From an uncultured Prochlorococcus sp. (lineage in GTDB: Bacteria; Cyanobacteriota; Cyanobacteriia; PCC-6307; Cyanobiaceae): a stretch of 64,000 nt of DNA. Location: the NCBI GenBank assembly GCA_902628235.1, contig CACOMD010000005.1, positions 1 to 64,000 on the forward strand. Reading direction: 5' to 3'. How positions within the stretch are numbered: position 1 is the first letter of the stretch; each line of letters opens with the position of its first letter. Shown here one piece after another: positions 676-2,223 of the stretch. The position numbers and the translations under genes are program-made. The notes beneath the pieces are model-generated. The model was not told where the DNA came from, did not search any database, and saw only the letters and a program-made list of their open reading frames with translations.

Positions 676-1113
676 TTAATATATTTGCATTCTCGCTGAT
701 TTACTAATTAGTGGTATTTCAGGTTCAATTCCAGAAATACATTGAATTAAACAAAATATAAATATTGCTAAAGTCAAAATAAATAAAAACAAACCTATTT
801 CAGCAATCGGGACAATCCTTAGTAAATATGAGAATAAAATAAGAGCTATATCTAAAAGTAAAGCTTGGCATCCATTGAATCTGACAAAATAAGGTACATT
901 TGGATTTCTAACAACTCCAGCAAATAAAATTAAAAATAATAATAAGCCTCCAAAAGGTAGGCTGTTTTCAATTATTGCGATTGGCAAAGTAATATAAAAG
1001 ATTAATTTTAAATAAGCGAATTTATAAAAAAAAATCGACCCAAAAGGTAACACAGCCTTTAAGGGAATAGTGTAAATGAGTATAGAGGAAATTCTTTGTA
1101 AGATTGAAGTCAA
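676..1113 (-). CDS. Tic20-family membrane protein
   Basis: Homologue of Tic20/Ycf60, the chloroplast inner-envelope translocon subunit; its cyanobacterial role is not settled. The 145-residue protein has four predicted membrane segments. The most diagnostic stretch is around residues 69-85, RNPNVPYFVRFNGCQALLL, typical of cyanobacterial Tic20. The only start available before the first membrane segment is TTG. The gene converges on the unknown seven-TM gene with a 30-bp gap and has no same-strand partner here. Confidence 0.85.
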   Translation of the reverse strand: MTSILQRISSILIYTIPLKAVLPFGSIFFYKFAYLKLIFYITLPIAIIENSLPFGGLLLFLILFAGVVRNPNVPYFVRFNGCQALLLDIALILFSYLLRIVPIAEIGLFLFILTLAIFIFCLIQCISGIEPEIPLISKSARMQIY

Positions 1114-1252
1114 TTAATTCTTGAAAACCTACTTAATACTAACCTTTTAATTAGATATTTATAGATTAAGAATTTCTAAGTATAAATTTTTTAAAGTTCT
1201 AACCAATTCTTTAAATAAATAGCGAACTAAAACCTTTTATTAATTCTTTATT

Positions 1253-1285
1253 CAATCTAGAAACAATCTGTAGACAATCTATATA
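1253..1285. repeat. Three tandem 11-bp direct repeats (iteron-like)
   Basis: The hexamer CAATCT occurs at 1253, 1264 and 1275, exactly 11 bp apart, within units caatctagaaa, caatctgtaga and caatctatata. The repeats lie about 35-67 bp before the ATG of the ribbon-helix-helix-like gene at 1320. One copy per helical turn is the arrangement expected of a tandem operator for a dimeric repressor or activator. Function as an operator is inference. Confidence 0.6.
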
Positions 1286-1319
1286 GATATTATTAGGATA
1301 TATTTATAGAAACGAAATT

Positions 1320-1814
1320 ATGCCCAAGAATTGGTCTTACTACAGAGAAGAATGGCTTAAAAATACCTCGATTCAAGAAGAGGATGCCAAATGGGCTCTG
1401 GAAGCCCTTATTGATTCAGAAGAAGAATTTTTTGAGATAGAAAGAGGACTACAAAATAAGGAAGATATCTTTGGAAAAGTAAAAGTTCTTAAGAAGAAAG
1501 TAAAAGAAAATCTTTCTTCAAAGGAAATAAGCCTAGATAATATTTCTTTAAATGCTTCAAACTCAAATAAGTTGCAAATCTCAGTCCCATCGAATATTAA
1601 TTATCTTTTAAAGGTATGGGCAGCAGCAGAAGGAAGAGACTTGTCAAGTGTTGCATTTCAATGTCTTGAAACGGGTTTAAGAGAAATGAAAAGTAAAGGT
1701 AGCATACCTTCAATTGCTACCAGTAGATATGATTCTGCTTGCAAAAAAAGAATTGCCTTAGCAGAAGTTAATAATTTACTTGATAAATATGAGTCTGCCC
1801 AAAATAAAAATTAA
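1320..1814 (+). CDS. Unknown protein with RHH/CopG-like C-terminal half
   Basis: The 164-residue protein begins with an acidic, Trp-containing helical region (residues 1-60, including a charged stretch KVKVLKKKVKEN). Residues about 85-120 (LQISVPSNINYLLKVWAAAE, then GRDLSSVAFQCLETGLREM) read like a ribbon-helix-helix: one strand starting with alternating polar and apolar residues, then two helices. This suggests a small DNA-binding regulator, perhaps autoregulated through the three 11-bp repeats just upstream. The following gene starts at or just before its stop, so the two are probably co-transcribed. The family is not one I can name; it may be restricted to picocyanobacteria. Confidence 0.7.
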   Translation: MPKNWSYYREEWLKNTSIQEEDAKWALEALIDSEEEFFEIERGLQNKEDIFGKVKVLKKKVKENLSSKEISLDNISLNASNSNKLQISVPSNINYLLKVWAAAEGRDLSSVAFQCLETGLREMKSKGSIPSIATSRYDSACKKRIALAEVNNLLDKYESAQNKN

Positions 1815-1818
1815 ATTC

Positions 1819-2223
1819 ATGTTGAAAAAATACTTACAAAAAAAATATAAAATTTTTAATAATTCCTCACTTGGTGAGAAATTCATATTTAAAAGAAATG
1901 GTTTAAAGGATGGTTTTATTTATACACTTTATTCCGATAATTCAAATCTAATTGAAGTTGGATTTACTCAAAGCAATAAAATTCTAGAAAATATATTAAT
2001 GGATGAAAAATTCATTTTGCTAGACAAAAAAAAAGGTTCCTTAAAGGAACTAAGCACCTTAAAAAGAACATTAGAGGATCTTGGACTTTTAATTTTAAAT
2101 AATAGATACTATAAATATTCTGAATTACTAATGAGACATTTGCATACTCTTGGTTGGCCTATAGGCAGATCTCTTTATAAACATAGAATTATAAAGAAGA
2201 AGATACTTTACGCAGTTAATTAA
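1819..2223 (+). CDS. Degenerate GIY-YIG-like small protein
   Basis: Residues 30-55 (GFIYTLYSDNSNLIEVGFTQ) match the outline of the GIY-YIG/T5orf172 fold: a GIY-like strand, a loop, then a YIG-like strand read as EVGFT. The Arg expected after the second strand of active GIY-YIG nucleases is not evident, so catalysis is doubtful. The C-terminal half is basic (HRIIKKK). The ORF track begins at a TTG at 1780, which would overlap the upstream gene by 35 bp; in-frame ATGs lie at 1789 and 1819, and I prefer 1819 because it sits 4 bp after the upstream stop. A related degenerate domain occurs in the gene at 21401-21943. Confidence 0.65.
   Translation: MLKKYLQKKYKIFNNSSLGEKFIFKRNGLKDGFIYTLYSDNSNLIEVGFTQSNKILENILMDEKFILLDKKKGSLKELSTLKRTLEDLGLLILNNRYYKYSELLMRHLHTLGWPIGRSLYKHRIIKKKILYAVN

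Follow-up and report, generated by a model that had tools for sequence, protein, structure and literature searches.

The protein-coding gene at 1320-1814 of the window (the whole stretch analysed here, 64,000 nucleotides from an uncultured, HNLC-like Prochlorococcus sp.) is preceded by short, evenly spaced repeats. This raises the question of whether these repeats are the operator through which the encoded 164-aa protein, called the regulator below, controls its own expression. The source assembly comprises 1.23 Mb and is 71% complete, and the closest relatives of the regulator protein were found in Prochlorococcus HNLC1 and AH-287 genomes with 95-97% identity.

Phased boxes and the predicted promoter

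The following elements were located upstream of the regulator gene.

1243-1248, forward strand: degenerate first box AATTCT, in register with the first perfect box, which lies 11 bp downstream; AATCT in most high-light (HL) relatives (alignment columns 8-11)
1253-1258, forward strand: box 1, CAATCT; the A-n-T-C columns 19-22 are invariant in 24 aligned sequences
1264-1269, forward strand: box 2, CAATCT; in many HL relatives AGAATCT or AGAATAT, i.e., in the opposite orientation or palindromic
1271-1276, forward strand: predicted -35 hexamer TAGACA
1275-1280, forward strand: box 3, CAATCT; the best-conserved box, overlapping the -35 hexamer by two bases
1285-1289, reverse strand: inverted half-box AGATA, AGATT in relatives; forms the palindrome AATCTATATAGATa with box 3
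1294-1299, forward strand: predicted -10 hexamer TAGGAT, 17 bp from the -35 hexamer

The first-pass annotation had placed CAATCT at 1253, 1264 and 1275, and all three copies were exact. Its count of three iterons holds for the perfect boxes and falls short of the total, since these are the middle of a longer array whose 11-bp frame is shared by the degenerate box at 1243 and the inverted half-box at 1285. In relatives, boxes in register with these two elements are better preserved. The 35 bp it gave as the distance to the start codon is close to the 34 bp counted to the ATG (1320) from position 1285, where the third 11-bp unit ends, and differs from the 39 bp that separate the end of box 3 (1280) from the ATG. 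In the window, five exact 6-mer triples with a constant spacing of 7-30 bp were observed compared to 1.1 expected per simulated window, while 0.03 triples were expected at a spacing of 11. Judged from the window alone, the CAATCT triple is a borderline case close to chance, and the array was counted as real because it is conserved and periodic across relatives.

The repeats were checked in orthologous upstream regions. The 11-bp phased boxes were kept in all Prochlorococcus orthologues examined (80 HL/HNLC and 19 low-light; these sequences were collected by similarity, which highly divergent ones may escape, and are related by descent, so that the counts are not independent events). Among the 80 HL/HNLC orthologues the boxes stayed in register while the DNA further upstream had diverged or was not alignable, and the alignment of 24 sequences showed invariant or almost invariant A-n-T-C positions from box to box. 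The marine Synechococcus arrays consist of a different box (AGnnnCT plus four free bases) with the same 11-bp step, and contain 4-9 tandem units by a loose criterion of three of the four key bases per unit, a number that depends on the criterion. Since AGnnnCT equals its reverse complement, a symmetric dimer could read each unit.

The phasing was evaluated by the mean self-match of the upstream regions relative to dinucleotide shuffles. The z-scores were about +19 at lag 11 and +22 at lag 22 in HL/HNLC, about +11 and +8 in low-light Prochlorococcus, and about +18 and +13 in Synechococcus, with a further +16 at lag 33. The spacing of one box per helical turn, as originally noted for the window, thus recurs in three clades. 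Lags 11 and 22 were the top two lags upstream of the regulator gene only, and no such peak was present upstream of five other genes of the same loci. These results indicate that the array is a real, deeply conserved putative operator. The near-chance frequency of triples in the window is what would be expected if the pattern were an accident of AT-rich DNA, but the periodicity and conservation extend across clades, GC-rich Synechococcus included, and are missing from the neighboring promoters. Nor does a leader RNA element fit, since there was no Rfam match and the folding energy was no better than that of shuffles (z 0.45). Chance and a leader RNA are together scarcely credible. As a separate observation, four upstream regions of distant cyanobacterial genes for proteins of the Pfam family RHH_5 also gave self-match peaks at 11 or 22 bp, and phased arrays may be common in the RHH_5-like family.

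The geometry of the predicted sigma70-type promoter is fixed relative to the array. Of the 80 HL/HNLC sequences, 78 have TAGACA (the other 2 TGGACA) 49 bp ahead of the start codon, in agreement with a consensus scan, and all 80 have TAnnnT 26 bp ahead of it, with its first and last T always retained and a spacer of 17 bp. Most HL, low-light and Synechococcus sequences share the spacing of 17. The low-light relatives have a matching arrangement in which the -10 hexamer is mostly TATAAT or TAGAAT, and the commonest best match in Synechococcus is TTGCnn, 17 bp and TACnnT, with both hexamers inside array units two steps apart. The boxes cover the predicted -35 hexamer and most of the spacer; conserved sites thus lie over the gene's own predicted promoter, as in an autoregulated operator.

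The regulator protein and its partner gene

Two adjacent genes follow the array, and a conserved core was delimited in the first.

1320-1814, forward strand: regulator gene, 164 aa; N-terminal helical part (about residues 1-75), C-terminal RHH domain (about 80-130), further helix (131-160)
1567-1709, forward strand: RHH core, protein residues 83-130, made up of the strand NKLQISVP, a pair of helices and KGSIP; this stretch gave the profile match to RHH_5 proteins, and the domain model has helices H18-29 and H33-51 with pLDDT >90
1819-2223, forward strand: partner gene, 134 aa, of no recognized family; starts 4 bp past the regulator stop; gene order kept in 43 of 44 loci

No Pfam or NCBIfam model recognized the whole regulator protein at its curated threshold. 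Compared with Pfam RHH_5 (PF07878), the window protein alone scored 12.7 bits (E 0.11), below the curated cut-off of 26 bits, and the best score among 37 regulator homologues was E 5e-4. A profile-profile comparison of these 37 homologues with six small cyanobacterial proteins gave a probability of 97.8% (E 9e-13, 52 columns, 37% identity), and five of the six exceed the RHH_5 cut-off, down to E 1e-16. The C-terminal half, which had been described from the sequence as reading like a ribbon-helix-helix (RHH), is by this profile comparison an RHH domain homologous to the RHH_5 proteins, which places it in the RHH superfamily. The latter are small cyanobacterial CopG-like proteins of 58-125 aa that stand alone, whereas the Prochlorococcus regulator, although of the same domain family, has in addition a helical N-terminal part and a long helix at its C-terminus and stays below the Pfam cut-off.

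Structure prediction with AlphaFold was poor for the full-length regulator (pLDDT 53), and this was the only model with a strand (85-88). The domain model (pLDDT 83), made from a shallow alignment, contained the two helices where they were expected, plus a long third one, all with pLDDT >90. It had no ribbon, as a ribbon needs the dimer. A PDB fold search with the domain model gave no significant match, and Arc, AvtR, CdbA and TacA2 appeared weakly among the noise. The N-terminal 75 residues are variable, predicted to be helical, and absent from the Synechococcus proteins of 78-100 aa. This extension occurs in Prochlorococcus and one deep-branching relative and is absent in marine Synechococcus, a distribution that implies a domain loss or gain in the N-terminal part.

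Directly after the regulator gene, a gene for a 120-150-aa protein was found in 43 of 44 loci, and on this ground the regulator and partner are taken as a two-gene module. In a class-wide sample the partner was detected in 8 of 145 genomes, all picocyanobacteria, at the regulator locus and only with the regulator present. The partner family carries the conserved motif GxIYTxY...IGF...RxGxxRE...TLKELG...S...LGWPxG, contains no known domain and is restricted to Prochlorococcus and marine Synechococcus. The stretch GxIYTxY...IxIGF prompted a comparison with GIY-YIG-like nucleases, an assignment that found no support in Pfam, PADLOC, PHROGs or PDB and was dropped.

Two small genes in fixed order and tight spacing, with a putative operator over their promoter, recall a toxin-antitoxin pair, in which the RHH protein would serve as antitoxin and DNA-binding subunit and the 134-aa protein as toxin or co-repressor, with the array as the operator. 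The closest parallel is relBE, where RHH dimers of RelB occupy repeats on one face of the DNA over the promoter of a two-gene operon and RelE acts as co-repressor (PMC2812701). However, the RelO operator has 6-bp half-sites in two 12-bp palindromes (PMC2812701), and the partner is not RelE. The partner had no credible match to any toxin family in Pfam, PADLOC or PHROGs, nor to any PDB chain, and a known type II toxin-antitoxin system was rejected on this basis. Moreover, the pair is single-copy, sits in a conserved Prochlorococcus neighborhood and is confined to one lineage, which differs from mobile toxin-antitoxin loci. A toxin-antitoxin-like pair is thus an unlikely account. By analogy, the partner may still modulate repression as RelE does for RelB (PMC2812701).

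The neighbors at the locus are TIC20-like, partner, pentapeptide-repeat and GMC genes. The TIC20-like gene (window 676-1113, opposite strand; PF16166, E 9e-15) adjoins the regulator in HL/HNLC genomes; among the low-light and Synechococcus loci examined, none was seen to have it. In four related genomes the distance between the locus and the GC-skew switch, the inferred replication terminus, amounts to 3-7% of genome length according to coarse skew sampling.

One array per genome

The genomic distribution of the array was examined with a 60-bp operator model. In 12 Prochlorococcus genomes searched deeply, each had one strong match (40-52 bits), always at the regulator gene, and the next-best matches reached at most 22 bits. 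Exactly one match, situated at the regulator gene, was found in 84 of 121 genomes of the Prochlorococcus genus, and genomes of the relatives set that lack the regulator gene had no operator match either. Some genomes of high completeness yielded no regulator gene, which may reflect assembly gaps or real loss. Among 24 Synechococcus genomes, 12 had a match to four phased AGnnnCT units, up to one mismatch being allowed, and every match lay just upstream of the regulator gene, while the backwards control pattern gave one match. The simplest reading of these searches is a private operator rather than a regulon. The first-pass view of a self-contained regulator-operator pair is borne out to the extent that the array overlaps a predicted promoter of fixed geometry and is unique to the regulator gene in each genome. 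The promoter overlap and the conserved downstream partner gene had gone unremarked in that annotation.

Three candidate second targets were rejected: a 260-aa response regulator, whose weak upstream matches were not kept beyond close HL relatives; a recurrent match that sits within a coding sequence; and a CRP/NtcA-like gene with a nearby match in one genome only. In most Prochlorococcus, the start codon of the 260-aa response regulator is preceded, at a distance of about 40-70 bp, by a conserved element, TTGAGAGAATC, which does not belong to the operator of the regulator studied here. A search for cyanophage or viral copies found none.

Two further readings bear on who uses the boxes and how. 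The RHH protein might activate the operon, or a different protein might read the boxes; some boxes do lie upstream of the -35 hexamer, and the pairing of protein and boxes is itself an inferred one. But coverage of the -35 hexamer and spacer is a repressing position, and array and gene occur together and nowhere else, while a general regulator would have more targets. We regard both variants as improbable.

Proposed mechanism and comparison with known systems

Our preferred reading, which we consider probable, is that the region 1243-1289 is the operator of the following gene, to which RHH dimers bind cooperatively and repress their own two-gene operon. Each 11-bp unit would offer one box to the beta-ribbon of one dimer; neighboring dimers would line up along one helix face and bind cooperatively. 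As the -35 hexamer and the spacer lie within reach of the overlapping array, we propose that bound dimers would exclude RNA polymerase, so that the regulator would limit expression of both itself and the partner. Sequence patterns and precedent are the basis on which we infer binding, its cooperativity and repression, as well as any modulating role of the partner or the N-terminal part. Autorepression of this RHH kind has been described for TrcR in Anabaena (PMC10272220), RelB (PMC2812701) and ParR (PMC5016525).

TrcR of Anabaena sp. PCC 7120 is the precedent within the phylum, a cyanobacterial RHH autorepressor with a conserved motif over its own promoter and a site overlapping its own -10 box (PMC10272220). 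In our own reading, its motif ATACTACACTTGTATTAC comprises ACTAC and ATTAC 11 bp apart. Unlike the regulator, TrcR carries the RHH close to its N-terminus, acts on several targets and uses two repeats, and orthology was rejected at a profile-profile probability of 0.2%. Since the regulator is not TrcR and TrcR was reported to be missing in Prochlorococcus (PMC10272220), the regulator may be a separate autoregulated RHH protein of picocyanobacteria.

The ParR/parC system of plasmid R1 likewise pairs an RHH protein with 11-bp direct-repeat iterons (22 bp for two) beside a promoter that ParR represses (PMC5016525, PMC4949242). The array might accordingly be a centromere-like or nucleoid-organizing site, with the RHH protein coating 4-9 boxes like ParR or omega and repression being secondary. 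Tandem iterons of one helical turn are shared with ParMRC, Synechococcus arrays reach 9 units, and the locus lies near the inferred terminus in four genomes. But R1 has two sets of five iterons, whereas here 3-9 units form a single chromosomal site, one array per genome, and the window array has three perfect boxes only. The terminus proximity comes from coarse skew sampling of related genomes. No motor protein gene lies in the operon or among the neighbors, nor does a ParM- or ParA-like gene adjoin; a ParMRC partition system was therefore rejected, and we consider a centromere-like role very unlikely. A broader possibility is that the regulator, 4-9 boxes and the partner constitute a lineage-specific chromosomal nucleoprotein module, ParR-like or antitoxin-like and perhaps terminus-linked, rather than a plain autorepressor, and that the box sequence and the ribbon residues changed in concert between Prochlorococcus and Synechococcus. 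We assign this idea little probability and retain the autorepressor with its private operator.

The MetJ strand reads KITVSIP, which the Synechococcus strand KLTVSVP resembles, and the Synechococcus box is AGnnnCT. MetJ is an RHH repressor that acts on tandem pseudo-palindromic met boxes (AGACGTCT, PMC4239095); these repeat every 8 bp and the regulator's boxes every 11 bp. The PDB search gave no MetJ match to the regulator, and there was no sign of a SAM link.

The comparison of the two genera also touches on specificity. By alignment with Arc, we take K84, Q86 and S88 to be the base-contacting ribbon residues. They are K-Q-S (KLQ) in Prochlorococcus and K-T-S (KLT) in Synechococcus, with boxes AnAATCT and AGnnnCT, respectively. 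The box change, matched by one predicted contact-residue change, could be a natural case of an RHH specificity shift; it is offered as a lead only, as a single evolutionary change is involved and both base composition and shared ancestry confound it.

Systems of this kind are known, while the regulator family, the partner and the long phased Synechococcus arrays appear to be undescribed in the literature searched. Prochlorococcus are the ocean's most abundant photosynthetic bacteria, and the pattern described here is an ancient one, with control of an ordinary kind. Prochlorococcus and marine Synechococcus have few transcription regulators, and the regulator-array pair is nearly universal among them; its sharply defined DNA site makes it easy to test.
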